Positions 35,612 to 44,423 of a DNA stretch of 64,000 bases are shown here, piece by piece. The notes under the pieces were generated by a model. That model was not told where the DNA came from. It ran no database searches and saw nothing but the letters and a program-made list of their open reading frames with translations. Source of the DNA: Collinsella sp. BA40 (GTDB lineage Bacteria > Actinomycetota > Coriobacteriia > Coriobacteriales > Coriobacteriaceae); contig NZ_VOWY01000002.1 in NCBI RefSeq assembly GCF_008014645.1, positions 124,001-188,000 on the forward strand, written 5' to 3'. A program made the translations under genes and the position numbers. Position 1 is the first letter of the stretch, and each line of letters begins with the position of its first letter.

Positions 35612-37156
35612 GTGCAGGGGAAAGACGCAGAACAGCAGATGCCGCCGCTCGGGTTCGAGGCGTACGGCGTGCTCCTCCACTCCGTCCTGGGTTTGGCGTT
35701 CGCCTCGTCCGTCGTGAACCTCTGCGTGCAGGCCGCGCACGCCACCACGGGCACGTCGATGCTGTCCGGATGGATCCTCTTCGCCTCCGCCTTCGTCATG
35801 GGCCTGTTGTTCTTGTCGACGCTGGTAATCAAGCGCTTCACGAAGCGCTCCGTGTCGCTGGGCGTGTTTTTGGCGATTCATCTCGCCGGCTTGTGCTCGC
35901 TGGTCCTCGCCCTCGCTTCATGGGGTCCCGCCGACCCCGATTCCACGCTGGGCTTGGCTCTGGGGACGGGCGTTACGGTGGGTAGCACCTATCTGGAGTT
36001 CTACTGGTTGCGCAAGCTGCGCGGCATCTCGGCGCAGGCGGCGTCGGTCGTGGTGTTCGCGGCCCTTGCGCTTGCCGAGACCATCACCTACATCCTGAGC
36101 TTCTCGGACAACGCGTGGTGGTATCTGGCCGGTACCGCGCTCACCTTCGGTCAGTTCGCCCTGGTGAGGTTGTCGCGCACGATGGACGCGCCGAGCGACT
36201 CGTTTCCCGCGGTCTCGGAGCTCTACTTTGGAACCGATGAGAACCGCTTCTCCAACCGCAGCTTCCTGGCCGTGGCCGCCGCGGGCATCTGGCTCATCTC
36301 CATTCCCATGGGTATGGGCCGCGGCTTTCCCGCGGGCGACCCGGTGTATATGAGCCTGGTTCCGCGCTTCCTCATCCTGGTGTTCGTGTGGATCGTCTCC
36401 CTGCTATGGGTGCGCAACGGCCTGCGCTCGCGCATGCGGGCGCTCACCACTAGCATCTGGGTGGTCATGCAGGTGCTTTTGGCCTTGGGCGCGGTCTTCT
36501 TCGCTATCTGGCCCAAGACGGTTTCCATCGGCGCGTCGTTCGTGATGGCGTCGTCGCTCGTGCTCAACGCGTTCGTGTGGTATCTCACCATCGCGTTCAT
36601 CAGCTTCGGCTGGCGCGATCCGTACTACTACGCTTCCGCCGCGTGGATCGCCATGAACGTGCTCACGGTGTTGGGCATGCGGTTCGACGCGCTGCTCGAC
36701 CGCATGATGCCCGACAACGCGCCGGTCATCATCTCCATCATGAGCTTGTTCGTGCTGGCGTCCGCCCAGCTGGTGTTCACGCGCCTGCTCTCGGCTCCCA
36801 GCGAGGCCGTCGAGGCGAGTCGGGCGCGCGGTCCCATCACCGAGGACGACGTGCGCAAGATTCCATTCATGGGCGTGTTGGCAATCGCGCCGCAGCAGCA
36901 GGCGCCCATGGTGAATCAGAAGCCCGACGTGCACACCGCCACGTCCGTGATGAAGATGGGCCAGCGCTTCGGCCTTACGGGCCGCGAGGTCGAGGTGCTC
37001 ACGCTGTATGCGCTGGGCCATACGCAGGCGCGCGTGAGCGAGGAGCTACAGCTCTCCACCAATACGGTGCACACGCATATCAAGCGCGTATACGAGAAGA
37101 CCGACCTGCATTCCCGTCAGGAGATCTTGGATTACATCTCGGAGTACGGCGGCTAG
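35612..37156 (+). CDS. LuxR-type regulator with multi-pass membrane sensor
   Basis: The 514-residue protein has about 12 hydrophobic segments spread over residues 15-400 and a cytoplasmic C-terminal LuxR/GerE helix-turn-helix (GLTGREVEVLTLYALGHTQARVSEEL and STNTVHTHIKRVYEKTDLHSR, about 450-510). Membrane LuxR regulators of this type are numerous in Coriobacteriia; their ligands are mostly unknown. The start is GTG 35612; ATG 35639 is an alternative. It overlaps the convergent HemW-like gene by four bases (CTAG shared by both stops). The target genes cannot be told from the sequence. Confidence 0.85.
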   Translation: MQGKDAEQQMPPLGFEAYGVLLHSVLGLAFASSVVNLCVQAAHATTGTSMLSGWILFASAFVMGLLFLSTLVIKRFTKRSVSLGVFLAIHLAGLCSLVLALASWGPADPDSTLGLALGTGVTVGSTYLEFYWLRKLRGISAQAASVVVFAALALAETITYILSFSDNAWWYLAGTALTFGQFALVRLSRTMDAPSDSFPAVSELYFGTDENRFSNRSFLAVAAAGIWLISIPMGMGRGFPAGDPVYMSLVPRFLILVFVWIVSLLWVRNGLRSRMRALTTSIWVVMQVLLALGAVFFAIWPKTVSIGASFVMASSLVLNAFVWYLTIAFISFGWRDPYYYASAAWIAMNVLTVLGMRFDALLDRMMPDNAPVIISIMSLFVLASAQLVFTRLLSAPSEAVEASRARGPITEDDVRKIPFMGVLAIAPQQQAPMVNQKPDVHTATSVMKMGQRFGLTGREVEVLTLYALGHTQARVSEELQLSTNTVHTHIKRVYEKTDLHSRQEILDYISEYGG

Positions 37157-38508
37157 GCGCGTCCCGCTTCGTCGGCGGCCCGTGCCGCCGCGATCTGCTG
37201 CGCGGCGGAGTCGTCGAACATCTTTCTCTCGCAGGGCGGTAGCATCGCGCGCAGGCGGTCGCGCTCGGTATTCATGCCGATGAACACCTGTCGCATCATA
37301 GCCAATACCAGGTATCGCCCCTTGCGGGTGAGCGTGAGCTCGTCGGCGTTGTTCGTCGCGAACGCGCCGTTCGCCGCGAGGTAGCCATACTCCATGGGCA
37401 GGTCGTATTGGATGTAGCGGCCGAAATCGCGCTTCCACGCGCGGTTGTCGAGGCGCAGGCCAAACAGCTCGCGGCCCATGCGGTAGCGCTTCTCGTTGGC
37501 GGGTCCCATGTCGATGCGGGCGGTAACGCTCGTCGCGTGTTCCCCGACGCGCCGGCAATAGCCCGCCAGGGAGGAGTCGTTGGCAAAGATCTGGTCTCCT
37601 AGGAAGGAGTACCCGCCGCATCCCGCGGCCACGTATTCGCCGTAATCGACCACGTATTCATCGATCATGGCTTGTTTATCCTGGGCGAATGTATAGACGT
37701 CCGAGGCGTGGAAGCCCGCGCCGCCCGCTGCCGTGTCGGCCGTCATGGCATCGAAGATGGCATGGTAGAGGCGCTGCTCGCGTGCGGGGTCGACCTTGCC
37801 GTGGAAGCACGTCTCCATGAGGCGCTCGCTGCCGGGCGAGGTCATGAGCGGGTAATACGTGATCTGGTTGGCGCCCGTGGTGCGGAAGGTCTCGATGTCC
37901 CGCAAGACCATTTCCTCGGTCTGTCCGGGGAAGTTGAAGATCATATCCACGTTGAAGGTACCGAACATATCGTGCGTATTCTGGATGCGCTCGACGATCT
38001 GCTCGGCGCTGCCGTTTTTTCCATAGCGATCCATGCGCTTGAGCAGCGTGTTGTCGAAGCTCTGCACGCCCACGGAGAGTCGCTGAACCATAGCGGAGAG
38101 GCGCTCGAGCCGCGTGCGGTCCAAGTGCGGAGGATTGGTCTCGCATGACACCTCGCGGATGCTGGGGAACAGCTCTCGCATGTAGTCGATGGTGCGCTCG
38201 AGTTCGTCCATGAGGATGGTGGGCGTGCCGCCGCCTATATAGGCGGCGGGTGGTTGGTAGCCCAGGTCGCGGATCATGGCGAGTTCGCGATGGAGTGCCT
38301 GGAAGTACCTGCGCGCGGCGTCCTCGCGAAGCGGGAAGCGGGTGAAAGAGCAGTAGGGGCACAGCACGTCGCAAAACGGGATGTGGACGTAGAGCAGGTG
38401 CGCGTGGCCGGGGTTCGGCGCGGGAAGCGTGCCGGGGGCGTTTGTGGAGCGGAGCAGCTTGCGGGCACCGGCGCCAACGGTTGCGGAGAGGAGTCGTTCG
38501 GAAAGCAT
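37153..38508 (-). CDS. HemW/HemN-like radical SAM protein
   Basis: The roughly 451-residue protein has YVHIPFCDVLCPYCSF, giving a CxxxCxxC radical SAM motif (C46, C50, C53), then AAYIGGGTPTIL, SCETNPPHL, RLSVGVQSFDNTLLKRMDRYG and FNVDMIFNFPGQTEE, all typical of the coproporphyrinogen oxidase/HemW family. HemW proteins are haem chaperones, true HemN makes protoporphyrinogen. Which applies here cannot be decided. ATG 38508 has GGAGG 4-5 nt upstream; extending the frame to 38874 adds 122 Arg/Pro-rich residues without family resemblance. A haem-related role would fit the nearby cytochrome gene, but that is inference. Confidence 0.82.
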   Translation of the reverse strand: MLSERLLSATVGAGARKLLRSTNAPGTLPAPNPGHAHLLYVHIPFCDVLCPYCSFTRFPLREDAARRYFQALHRELAMIRDLGYQPPAAYIGGGTPTILMDELERTIDYMRELFPSIREVSCETNPPHLDRTRLERLSAMVQRLSVGVQSFDNTLLKRMDRYGKNGSAEQIVERIQNTHDMFGTFNVDMIFNFPGQTEEMVLRDIETFRTTGANQITYYPLMTSPGSERLMETCFHGKVDPAREQRLYHAIFDAMTADTAAGGAGFHASDVYTFAQDKQAMIDEYVVDYGEYVAAGCGGYSFLGDQIFANDSSLAGYCRRVGEHATSVTARIDMGPANEKRYRMGRELFGLRLDNRAWKRDFGRYIQYDLPMEYGYLAANGAFATNNADELTLTRKGRYLVLAMMRQVFIGMNTERDRLRAMLPPCERKMFDDSAAQQIAAARAADEAGRA

Positions 38509-39055: not shown

Positions 39056-39778
39056 ATGAAAGAGAACACCGCTTTGGAGCAGGTTGGCTCCGGCGCGGAT
39101 CGCCTCGACTCCTTCTTCACCCGTCGTGGGTTCGTGAAGGTTTCGGGCGCATTCGTGGCGAGCATGGTGGCGCTCGGTCTCCTGCCGGACACCGCTGCTG
39201 CGGCTCCCACGAGCTCGAAGGGAAAGGTCGATTATTACGCGACCCCGTCCCACGTGCTCAAGGTGAACCGCGCCCGCTGCACCGGTTGCCAGCGCTGCGA
39301 GATGAGCTGCACGCTCCTCAACGACGGCGTGTCCCAGCCGGCCGCTGCGCGCATCCATGTGCACGACGGCTACCAGTACGGTAAGGAGCTCGGCTCCGGC
39401 GACGGCATCTTCTATTCGTGCGAGTGGAACGTGCGCGCCTGCCACATGTGCAAGACCGCGCTGTGCCAGACCGCGTGCCCCCAGGGCGCCATCGTCACCG
39501 ATGACAACGGCGTGCGTCGCGTGGACGCCGAGAAGTGCGTCGGCTGCGGCACCTGCGTCGCCGCCTGCCCCTATCACATGCCCGTGGTGAACACCGTTAC
39601 CGGCAAGTCTTCCAAATGCATCGCGTGCGGCCGCTGCGCCGAGCAGTGCCCCAACGGCGCGATCGAGCTCATCGAGTGGGAGGACGTGAGCCACTCCTCC
39701 GGCCCCACCAAGCAGGAGCACCCCTGGCCGCTCGTCTCCGAGCAGCAGGACTTTGTTGCCGGTGGCAAGATCGCTTAA
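39056..39778 (+). CDS. TAT-exported four-cluster ferredoxin-type protein
   Basis: The 240-residue protein has a twin-arginine signal (FFTRRGFVKVSG, R23-R24, followed by a hydrophobic stretch and AAAAP) and four cysteine groups: CTGCQRCEMSC, CHMCKTALCQTACP, CVGCGTCVAACP and CIACGRCAEQCP. This is the HycB/DmsB-like electron-transfer subunit layout with four [4Fe-4S] clusters. It is translated first in an operon with an AOR-family enzyme 15 bp later, so it probably carries that enzyme's electrons. A TAT signal on this subunit is notable, because AOR enzymes and their ferredoxin partners are usually cytoplasmic. Confidence 0.9.
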   Translation: MKENTALEQVGSGADRLDSFFTRRGFVKVSGAFVASMVALGLLPDTAAAAPTSSKGKVDYYATPSHVLKVNRARCTGCQRCEMSCTLLNDGVSQPAAARIHVHDGYQYGKELGSGDGIFYSCEWNVRACHMCKTALCQTACPQGAIVTDDNGVRRVDAEKCVGCGTCVAACPYHMPVVNTVTGKSSKCIACGRCAEQCPNGAIELIEWEDVSHSSGPTKQEHPWPLVSEQQDFVAGGKIA

Positions 39779-39793
39779 GAATAGGAGAAGTAA

Positions 39794-42046
39794 ATGGCTG
39801 AAACCTCTTACGGTTGGGCTGGCTGGATCGCCCGCGTCAACCTTACGAGCGGTGAGATCACCGAAGAGTCCGATGTCGAGATGCAGAAGGACTACATCGG
39901 CGGCATGGGCTTTGCAAACAAGATCATGTACGACGAGGTCCCCGCAGGCGTGAAGTGGATGGACGAGGAGAACAAGGCCGTTCTCGCCGTCGGTCCCCTG
40001 ACCGGTTCCGGCGTGCCGCTGGCCGGTCGCTCCACCTGGTCCACGCTGTCCACCTTCACCAAGGACCACCTGGTTGTCGACTGCCACTGCGGCGGCCAGC
40101 TGGGCGCCACCCTCAAGTATTCCGGCCACGACGGCTTGATCATCGAGGGCAAGTCCGACAAGCCGGTCTACATCCTCATCGAGGACGATAAGATCTCCAT
40201 CGAGGACGCCTCCGCGCTGTGGGGCAAGGGTGCGCGCGAGGTCAACGAGGCCCTGTGCAAGAAGCACGGCCTCGAGTGCTGCGTGGCCACCATCGGCCCC
40301 GCCGGCGAGAACATGCTGCCCTACGCCTGCGTTATGAACAGCCGCTCGCACTCCGCGGGCGCCGGCCTGGGCGCCGTCCTGGGCTCCAAGAAGTGCAAGG
40401 CCGTCGTCGTCAAGGGCACCAAGGCTTGCAACGTGGCCGACCCGCAGATGGTCGCCGACCTGTCCGATTACATGATCGCCCAGGTCCTGGGCTCCAACAA
40501 CAACCATGTCGTGCCGAGCACCCAGCAGTCCTGGGCCGAGTACTACGACAAGGGTTCCCGTTGGACCGCTCGCAAGGGTCTGTACTGGGCGGCTGCCGAG
40601 GGCGGCCCCATCGAGACCGGCGAGCCCAAGCCCTTCGAGCCCAACACCATGGGCTACCGCTGCATGAAGTCCACCAAGGACCTCGGTCCCGCGGCCGAGA
40701 AGTACACCGTGAAGATGGCCGGCTGCCACGGTTGCCCCGTGCGCTGCTATGCCCAGGTGAAGGTGCCGCAGGTCCAGCAGGCCACCGGCTACGAGTCCTC
40801 GGGCAACACCTGCGTCCCCAACTTCCCCTTCACCGCCTACATGCAGCCCATGTGGCAGGTGCCGGGCATCCAGGAGGGCGAGAACAAGACGCTTACCGAT
40901 CTGTCCGTCTTCTATAACCAGCTCATCTCGGTGACCGTGGACGACCTGGGCCTGTGGTGCAACTACGCCCAGCTCTACCGCGACCTGGCTTGGACCTACA
41001 AGGAGGGCCTGCTCGCCCAGCACTGCACCCCCGAGCAGATGGCCGAGTACAACTTCGACGCCATCTTCGCGGGCGACCCCACCTCGTTCATCAAGATCTT
41101 CCTCGACATCGCCTCCAACGACACCGAGAACAAGCCCATCTCCTGGCTTGGCCACGGTCCGTACGTGTGGACCGATGCCGACCACTGGAACCGTCCCGAC
41201 TGGTTCGATAACAAGGCGTCCAAGCTCATCAACTATCGCGGCTGGCCGGTCCACCATTCCATCGAGTGCTTCGCGCAGGTGGGCGGTCTGTACAACATGG
41301 TGTTCAACCGCGACAACATGATCCACTCCGCCGTCAACCTGCAGGGCTGCGGCCTGCCCATCGAGCTTAAGAAGCAGATGGCTGCCGAGATGTTCGGCGG
41401 CGAGGACGCCATGGATCCGGACAAGAACTACACCCCCATCAACGAGCACAAGATCGAGTTCGCCTGGTGGAGCATCGTCACCGACGTTCTGCACGACTCC
41501 CTGTGCCTGTGCAACTGGGTGTGGCCCATGGCCATGGCACCGGCCAAGGAGCGCAGCTACCGCGGCGACCTGGACCTCGAGGCCCAGTTCTACACCGCGG
41601 TCACCGGCCAGAAGGTGACCATCGACGACCTGTACAAGGCCGCCGAGCGCATCATGACCCTCCAGCGCGTCAACACCGTCCGCGGCATGACCGACAAGGA
41701 CGGCAAGATGGGCTGCAACGACATGCGCAACGTGCATGACGTCATCACCGAGTGGGTCTTCACGGAGGATCCCGACATCAAGCCCTTCACCCCGGGCACC
41801 GACAAGATGGAGCGCGAGGACTGGAAGAAGTCCCTCACCATGTTCTACAAGCGCTTCGGTTGGGACGAGAAGCTGGGCTGCCCCACCAAGCAGTGCCTGG
41901 CCGACCTGGGCCTGGAGCAGGAGTCCAAGGACCTCGAGGAGCTTGGCCTGCTGGTCGACGGCGGCGTTTCCTACGACGAGCGCACCCGTAAGTACGACGG
42001 CCTGCTGAAGAAGTACTGCGGCGACAACCCCGCGCTGAGCGCCTAA
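39794..42046 (+). CDS. Aldehyde ferredoxin oxidoreductase family enzyme
   Basis: AOR-family enzymes carry a tungsten (or molybdenum) bis-pyranopterin and one [4Fe-4S] cluster and oxidise aldehydes to acids, or do related reactions. The 750-residue protein has N-terminal TSGEITEESDV...YIGGMGFANKIMYDEV, GPLTGSGVPLAGRSTWST, HCGGQLGATLKYSGHDGLII and IGPAGENMLPYACVMN, as well as the cluster motif AGCHGCPVRCYAQV with a later Cys in SLCLCNWVW. Length is longer than the roughly 600-residue classic AOR. No signal peptide is present. It lies between a TAT Fe-S subunit and an anchored multihaem cytochrome. The substrate is unknown. Confidence 0.9.
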   Translation: MAETSYGWAGWIARVNLTSGEITEESDVEMQKDYIGGMGFANKIMYDEVPAGVKWMDEENKAVLAVGPLTGSGVPLAGRSTWSTLSTFTKDHLVVDCHCGGQLGATLKYSGHDGLIIEGKSDKPVYILIEDDKISIEDASALWGKGAREVNEALCKKHGLECCVATIGPAGENMLPYACVMNSRSHSAGAGLGAVLGSKKCKAVVVKGTKACNVADPQMVADLSDYMIAQVLGSNNNHVVPSTQQSWAEYYDKGSRWTARKGLYWAAAEGGPIETGEPKPFEPNTMGYRCMKSTKDLGPAAEKYTVKMAGCHGCPVRCYAQVKVPQVQQATGYESSGNTCVPNFPFTAYMQPMWQVPGIQEGENKTLTDLSVFYNQLISVTVDDLGLWCNYAQLYRDLAWTYKEGLLAQHCTPEQMAEYNFDAIFAGDPTSFIKIFLDIASNDTENKPISWLGHGPYVWTDADHWNRPDWFDNKASKLINYRGWPVHHSIECFAQVGGLYNMVFNRDNMIHSAVNLQGCGLPIELKKQMAAEMFGGEDAMDPDKNYTPINEHKIEFAWWSIVTDVLHDSLCLCNWVWPMAMAPAKERSYRGDLDLEAQFYTAVTGQKVTIDDLYKAAERIMTLQRVNTVRGMTDKDGKMGCNDMRNVHDVITEWVFTEDPDIKPFTPGTDKMEREDWKKSLTMFYKRFGWDEKLGCPTKQCLADLGLEQESKDLEELGLLVDGGVSYDERTRKYDGLLKKYCGDNPALSA

Positions 42047-42068
42047 GTGGTCTCGAAAGGAGAAAACA

Positions 42069-42749
42069 ATGGCTGACGAGATCAAGGAGAGCACGGAGGC
42101 TACCGAGTCCGCCGCTCCCAAGAAGAAGAAATTCGATTGGAAGGGCAAGCGCCTTCCGATCGTCATCGCTGCCGTGGTCGTTGTGACCGTGCTCGGCGTT
42201 GCCGGCTGGGCCTGGCATGCGACCCCCGAGTTCTGCGATGCCGTGTGCCACAGCACCATGGGCAAGTACTACAAGTCCTACACCCAGGACACCACGTCGC
42301 TCGCCTACAAGCACCGCGGTACGACCAATAACCAGTGCCTGGGCTGCCATGAGGCAACCCTGCCCCAGATGATGCACGAGGTCCAGGTCCAGCTGTCCGG
42401 CGACTATCCGCAGCCGTTCGACAAGGTCACCTTCTCGAACGACTTCTGCCTGCAGAGCGGTTGCCACCTGGGCGCTGGCGTGATGCCGGGCGCGACGGAG
42501 TCCTCTACCAAGGACTTCCCGTTCGACCCGCATAGCGACTACCACGGCGTGCAGCAGTGCAACTCCTGCCACCTCATGCACGACGAGCCCGTCTTCACCT
42601 GCGCTTCCTGCCACCAGGTAGGCGCCTGGGAGGGCGAGGGCGGCATCCCCGAGGGCTGGGTCATGGAAGACCTGGGCAACGGCAAGACCGGTGCCGTTCC
42701 CGAGGGTTGGGCTACCCCCTTCACCTTCGAGGCCTCTTCCGGCAAGTAA
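42069..42749 (+). CDS. Membrane-anchored multihaem cytochrome c, five haem motifs
   Basis: The 226-residue protein has a basic N-terminus, one membrane anchor (LPIVIAAVVVVTVLGVAGWAW, about 29-49) and an exported domain. Haem-binding motifs are FCDAVCH (CX3CH, near residue 56), CLGCH, FCLQSGCH (CX4CH), CNSCH and CASCH, so five haems are possible, two at non-standard spacings. The first motif with downstream Met (CHSTM) resembles NapC/NrfH quinol dehydrogenases. It is last in the AOR operon (22 bp after AOR) and is probably the electron route between the Fe-S/AOR module and the quinone pool or an outer partner. Followed by a strong terminator. Confidence 0.88.
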   Translation: MADEIKESTEATESAAPKKKKFDWKGKRLPIVIAAVVVVTVLGVAGWAWHATPEFCDAVCHSTMGKYYKSYTQDTTSLAYKHRGTTNNQCLGCHEATLPQMMHEVQVQLSGDYPQPFDKVTFSNDFCLQSGCHLGAGVMPGATESSTKDFPFDPHSDYHGVQQCNSCHLMHDEPVFTCASCHQVGAWEGEGGIPEGWVMEDLGNGKTGAVPEGWATPFTFEASSGK

Positions 42750-42791: not shown

Positions 42792-42826
42792 GGACGGTCC
42801 TCCGCAGTGGAGGGCCGTCCTTTTAT
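42792..42826 (+). terminator. Rho-independent terminator of the AOR operon
   Basis: GGACGGTCCTCC, a GCAGT loop and GGAGGGCCGTCC (one weak pair) are followed by TTTTAT. Confidence 0.85.
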
Positions 42827-43208: not shown

Positions 43209-44423
43209 ATGGCGTGGTGCGATCGCGGGCACAAGGGTATAACGCGCCGCGGCTTCGCGTTGGGGGCGGCTGCAGCGGGCACCGCCGCCGCGGTGTTGAG
43301 CGGTTGCGGGTCCGAGGGCAAGAAGGTCAAGCCCACTTCGGGCGAGCCGCAGGTCGTCGAGGACTCCTCGCAGATCATCGACGCGCTCGAGGAGTTCGAG
43401 GGCAAGGACACGGGCCTCAATCCCGTGAAGATATGGAACCTGCCGCTCGGTACGGTGTTGTTCCACAGCGATGGCTCCTGGGCCGCGGCCATGATGGCAC
43501 CCGAGTCCGCCCAGCACGTCAATACGCTGGGCGCGCTTTCGGTGATCGACGGCTCGCTCGTTACGCTCAAGGAGGATCCCACGCTGGGGCGCACGTACGG
43601 CTTCTTCGACGTTCGCTGCGGTTCCGGGGTGTACGCATGGATCGAGATCGACTACGCCACACGTATCTGGGTTCTGCTTGCCCAGCAGTTTAGCGGCGGG
43701 GCGCTGTCGGGTGAGCCGGTCCAGCTCGATACCGGTGACAAGAATTGGGAACCTCCGCTCTTCACCTGCACCGGCCCCACGGTGATATGGCAGAAGATGC
43801 CGCTTGCTTCCGGCGACCGCCGCTCGTCCGATTCGCATTGCTATCGCTGGTCGGTGGGGGATGCGAAGGAAACCGAGGTGTGGAGGTCCACCGGCCGCTT
43901 CGCCACGCCCCCGCGCGTTTCGAATGGGATCCTCACCATCACGCCGCGCGTGCGGAACGAAGAGGGTACATACTACGGCCTTACCGCGGTCGACCTGCAG
44001 AGCCCGAACAACACCAAGCTCGACCAGCTGGTGCTGCCTGCATCCGTGAGGCCCTTTGAAGCGGTGTACACGGGCGAGGTCTTCGCCTTCTCCATCGAGG
44101 CGTCGTACGATTCCGCCGGCAGCCTGGGCAAGATGGGTACGTTCGTGGGGCGCGAGGGCGGTCCGTACGTGTACTTCAGCCGCGAGCCCGCCGCGCAGAT
44201 CGCCTACAGCGGCACGAGGTATCTCGTAAAGACGCAGTCGGCGCATTACATGTTCGACCCCGCCAACCAGCTGCTCGACTCGATCTCGTCGCCCGACCGC
44301 TCGCTGGGCTTCGGCGACTATCCGGCGAGCGAGGGCAGCGTGAGCACCTTCGTGACCTATGCCACCGTGCGCGATGCCAAGGGCATCCCTTCGGGCGTGG
44401 TGGCCCGCACGTTCGAGCTCTAG
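43209..44423 (+). CDS. TAT-exported lipoprotein of unknown function
   Basis: The 404-residue protein starts with a twin-arginine signal (GITRRGFALGAAAAG) and a lipobox VLSGC (C33), so it is probably exported folded and lipid-anchored. The remainder is beta-rich with repeated W/G patterns (YAWIEIDYATRIWVLL, YYGLTAVDLQSPNNTKL, TFVGREGGPYVYFSREP), consistent with a beta-propeller-like or lyase-less solute-binding fold. I recognise no catalytic motif. Start ATG 43209 is 5 bp after the TSCPD stop, so the two are cotranscribed. Confidence 0.75.
   Translation: MAWCDRGHKGITRRGFALGAAAAGTAAAVLSGCGSEGKKVKPTSGEPQVVEDSSQIIDALEEFEGKDTGLNPVKIWNLPLGTVLFHSDGSWAAAMMAPESAQHVNTLGALSVIDGSLVTLKEDPTLGRTYGFFDVRCGSGVYAWIEIDYATRIWVLLAQQFSGGALSGEPVQLDTGDKNWEPPLFTCTGPTVIWQKMPLASGDRRSSDSHCYRWSVGDAKETEVWRSTGRFATPPRVSNGILTITPRVRNEEGTYYGLTAVDLQSPNNTKLDQLVLPASVRPFEAVYTGEVFAFSIEASYDSAGSLGKMGTFVGREGGPYVYFSREPAAQIAYSGTRYLVKTQSAHYMFDPANQLLDSISSPDRSLGFGDYPASEGSVSTFVTYATVRDAKGIPSGVVARTFEL

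Follow-up and report, generated by a model that had tools for sequence, protein, structure and literature searches.

A three-gene operon at positions 39056-42749 of a 64,000-nucleotide stretch of the Collinsella sp. BA40 genome (contig NZ_VOWY01000002.1, positions 124,001 to 188,000; hereafter the window) probably encodes a membrane-attached, extracytoplasmic respiratory complex. At its core would be an AOR-family enzyme of YdhV type (Class V, clade 41), and it would work as a reductase fed by menaquinol. Because longest open reading frames are misleading in the G+C-rich DNA of this host, we called genes with a codon-usage scorer, and we assigned the operon from open reading frames, sequence motifs, family models and structure matches as follows:

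39056-39778, plus strand: Fe-S small subunit, WorS/YdhY-like, 240 residues (open reading frame, motifs, structure match)
39794-42046, plus strand: AOR-family catalytic subunit, WorL/YdhV family, 750 residues (NF007354, identity to YdhV, fold)
42069-42749, plus strand: membrane-anchored pentahaem c-type cytochrome, Cgr1-like, 226 residues (PF14537, haem motifs)
42792-42820, plus strand: terminator-like hairpin, 13 pairs then TTTT, the likely end of a three-gene transcript

Gaps of 15 bp (Fe-S/AOR) and 22 bp (AOR/cytochrome) separate the genes, and a purine-rich, ribosome-binding-like stretch lies just 5' of all three starts. The hairpin is only suggestive as a terminator, since the region holds two such sites against 2.6 expected by chance. 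A first-pass annotation had described these genes as one unit with the same gaps, comprising a Fe-S protein with a signal for the twin-arginine translocation (Tat) system and four [4Fe-4S] motifs, an AOR subunit lacking a signal peptide, and a membrane-anchored multihaem cytochrome; our analysis bears out each of these assignments.

The Fe-S protein begins with the Tat motif FFTRRGFVK, followed by a hydrophobic stretch at residues 25-43 and an AxA-type cleavage site (AAAAAP region). Its 16 cysteines form four [4Fe-4S] sets (75/78/81/85, 129/132/137/141, 161/164/167/171 and 188/191/194/198), and it is 40% identical to Escherichia coli YdhY. Residues 67-212 match the AOR small subunits of solved complexes (8c0z_C, 9mqx_E and 6x6u_B). 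In two of the three the match starts at or near their N-terminus (residues 4 and 14), indicating that the Tat part is an addition ahead of a standard AOR small subunit. Across 27 Coriobacteriaceae loci the motif FFTRRGFVK does not change, while its arginine codons vary synonymously (CGT, CGC, AGG, AGA, CGA), and the small subunits of Eggerthellaceae carry FTRR too. In the AOR subunit itself, the first 40 residues contain neither a twin arginine nor a hydrophobic segment.

The catalytic subunit scores 965.9 bits against the NCBIfam YdhV model NF007354, above the cut-off of 868, and is 51% identical to E. coli YdhV; we place it in clade 41 by this equivalog cut-off, in place of a WOR-family tree. 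Its predicted structure matches those of AOR, formaldehyde oxidoreductase, WOR5 and BamB with Z scores of 27-33, far above the next matches, and we used this model for its fold only, as its mean pLDDT (predicted local distance difference test) is 68 and confidence is low around the clusters and C340. From the sequence, C311, C314, C318 and C573 are the likely [4Fe-4S] ligands. C340 aligns with C336 of YdhV, is the same in every sequence of two alignments (14 and 19 sequences), and is likely a ligand of the metal, the metal binding itself being taken from the literature on YdhV. There, the YdhV cysteine is an additional metal ligand common only to BamB, and the YdhV clade does not have the second-shell residues of the aldehyde-oxidising members (PMC12096430). 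A strict aldehyde:ferredoxin oxidoreductase holds its metal without a protein ligand, and here a YdhV-type cysteine is predicted at that position. We rejected identification as an ordinary AOR on account of the match to the YdhV model and the putative extra cysteine ligand. Because of this cysteine and the missing second-shell residues of its clade, we do not assume that the catalytic subunit oxidises aldehydes, and the aldehyde activity for which the first-pass annotation had suggested assaying is doubtful.

The cytochrome has a single hydrophobic segment near its N-terminus (residues 29-47), preceded by lysines, and five haem motifs: CX3CH, CX2CH, CX4CH, CX2CH and CX2CH. Two of these differ from the standard CX2CH, and the spacing (3, 2, 4, 2, 2) is invariant across all relatives. 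The protein matches Pfam PF14537, the family of Cgr1; profile-based comparison with the PDB returned nothing beyond a weak match to flavocytochrome c3. A Pfam scan of the cytochrome gave no match to the NapC/NrfH model PF03264; its topology and haem motifs fit the NapC/NrfH type.

Each of the 27 Coriobacteriaceae loci that extend far enough to show it has the order Fe-S protein, AOR, cytochrome; with order and motifs so conserved, the three-gene arrangement is not due to chance. An AOR gene is present in 30 of 65 genomes of the family, and a close relative of the cytochrome (E < 1e-120) occurs in exactly those 30, always beside the AOR gene. Cytochrome c maturation (Ccm) genes of family PF01578 follow the same pattern, with 29 of 30 AOR-positive genomes and 0 of 35 AOR-negative genomes carrying them (Fisher p 1e-17, uncorrected); the sole AOR-positive genome without PF01578 (G053) is 81% complete. 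On a tree of TatC, explaining which genomes carry the AOR gene takes about seven changes; three are unavoidable given branches with firm support, and the maturation genes change in step with it. A search of genomes for the same three-gene set, proposed in the first-pass annotation as a check, recovers it in every readable Coriobacteriaceae locus. TatC is present in 62 of the 65 genomes and has no discriminating power, and co-occurrence with MoaA is weak evidence because six genomes hold MoaA without AOR or PF00384. Many Collinsella-type genomes (G005-G037) also encode a PF00384 protein whose reading frame contains a single TGA; this is probably a formate dehydrogenase with selenocysteine.

The host genome (1.93 Mb, Collinsella type, rated 99.99% complete) carries one AOR gene, whose closest relative is that of C. 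tanakaei YIT 12063 (93% identical). It also holds TatA and TatC, a single ccmC-B-A-F-E cluster, and MoaA and MoaC/MobB. Searches of this genome for the dimethyl sulfoxide (DMSO)-reductase family (PF00384) and the xanthine-oxidase family (PF02738) detected neither, leaving the AOR as the sole pyranopterin enzyme detected and the only client found for MoaA and MoaC. A UbiE/MenG-family methyltransferase gene shares a cluster with tatA and tatC, and the genome has one UbiA prenyltransferase-family gene.

Together these data suggest a path for the complex. The two soluble subunits would acquire a molybdenum or tungsten (Mo/W) cofactor and Fe-S clusters before leaving the cytoplasm, and Tat would then export the folded Fe-S/AOR pair on the signal of the Fe-S subunit alone, as folded partners of periplasmic hydrogenases and formate dehydrogenases are exported on one signal (PMC10924467). 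Outside, we infer that the pair docks on the pentahaem cytochrome, which would be held by its one-helix anchor and receive its haems from Ccm. Menaquinol would most likely be the electron donor, with the haems and then the four clusters relaying electrons to the Mo/W site, where an external substrate would be reduced, as digoxin is thought to be by Cgr1 and Cgr2. Export of the pair is very likely, judging from the Tat genes, the invariant motif, the AOR-type small subunit and the near-exact co-occurrence of AOR, cytochrome and maturation genes. Given export, the reductase direction is the weakest step and is still the probable one; we favour it because of the predicted cysteine ligand, the lack of aldehyde activity in a clade-41 enzyme from Cetobacterium somerae, and the analogy with Cgr1/Cgr2, in which electrons are proposed to travel from quinones via Cgr1 to a reductase exported by Tat (PMC5953540). 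Hitchhiker export and electron exchange with a membrane cytochrome, both put forward in the first-pass annotation, fit every sequence test; for its flow of electrons into the quinone pool we favour the reverse direction. In its most specific form, a minimal three-gene, Tat-exported, AOR-fold respiratory reductase that draws on menaquinol through the pentahaem cytochrome and acts with a cysteine-ligated Mo/W site on a substrate outside the cell, the proposal stands at about even chances. If true, it would give the AOR family its first demonstrated terminal respiratory reductase.

Several observations weigh against this reading. E. coli YdhY (locus L038, 8855-9478), the nearest characterised small subunit, has TRLEFLRISG, then LLGC, and no twin arginine. 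The cytochrome scores 95 bits against the Cgr1 model NF051471, under the cut-off of 340, and its AlphaFold model (pLDDT 41) is too poor for use. A paired sign test on the TatC tree, with 3 independent pairs, is not significant (p 0.25), and our search for the menaquinone pathway covered two genes. We sought a ModA- or TupA-type binding protein in host contigs C1 to C30 and recognised none, despite the presence of MoaA and MoaC; the search for Mo/W binding proteins returned two PstS-type matches, one with its own Tat-lipoprotein signal.

The same exported complex could instead run as a dehydrogenase, oxidising an external aldehyde or other reduced compound and passing electrons through the cytochrome to the menaquinone pool or another acceptor. 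This is the direction that the first-pass annotation had proposed, and textbook background lends it some weight, as most characterised AOR-family enzymes oxidise aldehydes and multihaem cytochromes can run both ways. The putative C340 ligand argues against it, as do the reported absence from the YdhV clade of the second-shell residues tied to aldehydes and the inactivity of the C. somerae enzyme CsWOR41L on 46 aldehydes (PMC13328260). Related Cgr1-type cytochromes of the same order are, moreover, proposed to feed reductases. We consider the dehydrogenase unlikely, while giving it appreciable weight.

Two further alternatives place the AOR inside the cell. If the Fe-S protein were exported alone, or its Tat signal were unused, the AOR would remain cytoplasmic and the gene order would reflect co-regulation only. 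The AOR indeed has no signal of its own, hitchhiker export has no known precedent in the AOR family, and CsWOR41 gave no co-purification of its L and S subunits (PMC13328260), which also counts against the complex that we propose. Yet the Fe-S protein belongs to a class of direct AOR-binding subunits and bears an invariant Tat signal, and a cytoplasmic AOR that never met the cytochrome would have no need to be gained and lost jointly with the cytochrome and maturation genes; we regard a cytoplasmic AOR as very improbable. Alternatively, an uncleaved signal could act as a membrane anchor that tethers the pair on the cytoplasmic face. The small subunits of Eggerthellaceae, in which the RR motif precedes a long hydrophobic stretch and no AxA site is obvious, would suit such an anchor, but a cleavage region (AAAAAP) is clear in the window Fe-S protein, and the haem domain of the cytochrome must lie outside for haem attachment, making this arrangement scarcely credible. 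The exported, menaquinol-fed reductase remains the reading that we prefer.

Three neighbouring genes flank the operon:

35639-37156, plus strand: multi-transmembrane LuxR-type protein with a C-terminal GerE domain, candidate regulator of the operon
37153-38508, minus strand: HemN-like radical SAM protein, scoring over the NF006385 cut-off
43209-44423, plus strand: Tat-type lipoprotein (ITRRGFALGAAAAGTAAAVLSGC), with no Pfam or NCBIfam match

The LuxR-type protein has nine strong hydrophobic segments in a simple hydropathy scan, where the Coriobacteriia class has 10-12 N-terminal helices, and many relatives have a homologue close to the operon. Multi-transmembrane LuxR regulators of this class control reductases in Eggerthella, and those of E. 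lenta respond to substrates of the enzymes under their control (PMC9734109); the nearby gene therefore offers a route to the substrate. The HemN-like gene adjoins the operon in about one third of Coriobacteriaceae loci, and its product could have a role in haem supply or in something unrelated. The lipoprotein gene is a conserved downstream neighbour in most Coriobacteriaceae loci. With a single pyranopterin enzyme detected in the genome, and with the cytochrome and Ccm linked to it, perturbing the operon, tatC, ccm or the supply of tungstate versus molybdate should read out on one enzyme. As the operon is common in gut Collinsella and their relatives, the identity of its substrate could be relevant to gut chemistry.

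The first-pass annotation regarded an extracytoplasmic AOR-family enzyme as new, a claim that earlier proposals overturn. PMC13328260 (June 2026) describes Class V WORs as membrane-associated and periplasmic, with Tat on WorS, confined to clade 41 and occurring in Collinsella by name; PMC4257093 (2014) predicted the E. coli Ydh complex to be periplasmic, as opposed to a cytoplasmic YdhV in Eggerthella. We found no experiment in the literature showing the location of any such enzyme, and according to PMC13328260 there is no Class V WOR whose reaction is known or whose location has been measured. The Class V/clade 41 enzymes described there have in common with the operon a YdhV-family large subunit, a four-cluster Tat small subunit and at least one further subunit. 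In that text the Coriobacteria have a second pyranopterin subunit in addition to one that spans the membrane, an arrangement that fits the loci of Eggerthellaceae and not the present operon with its pentahaem cytochrome. In those loci (L025, 1231-5525, and also L027 and L029) the Fe-S subunit is divergent and clustered with a DMSO-reductase-family protein (PF00384), an Fe-S protein and NrfD, and two pyranopterin enzymes may share one electron path. Relative to the text of that paper, what is new here is the pentahaem-cytochrome wiring and its co-loss with Ccm genes.

Other characterised systems each share part of this design. E. coli YdhYVWXUT has the same order of small then large subunit, but it has additional YdhW, X, U and T, no multihaem cytochrome, and a YdhY without twin arginine, even though its AOR partner is described as periplasmic; YdhX, encoded in the same operon, does have one (SFTRRKFVLG). 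BamB (4z3w, class II benzoyl-CoA reductase) resembles the predicted AOR model in fold (Z 31.4, root-mean-square deviation 3.2 over 550 residues), and its Cys322 is the metal-ligand cysteine common to YdhV and BamB in PMC12096430, C340 of the window having been aligned to YdhV only; BamB differs in that it belongs to a cytoplasmic complex whose substrate is a coenzyme A thioester. Cgr1/Cgr2 of Eggerthella lenta (PMC5953540) likewise sets a membrane PF14537 cytochrome beside an Fe-S reductase system that Tat exports, and has a LuxR regulator close by, although Cgr2 differs from the AOR in being a flavoenzyme with its own Tat signal. Among the systems compared, the operon has the simplest wiring, with one detectable pyranopterin enzyme and with the cytochrome and Ccm found only alongside the AOR, and it represents a new wiring variant of a kind of enzyme already proposed.

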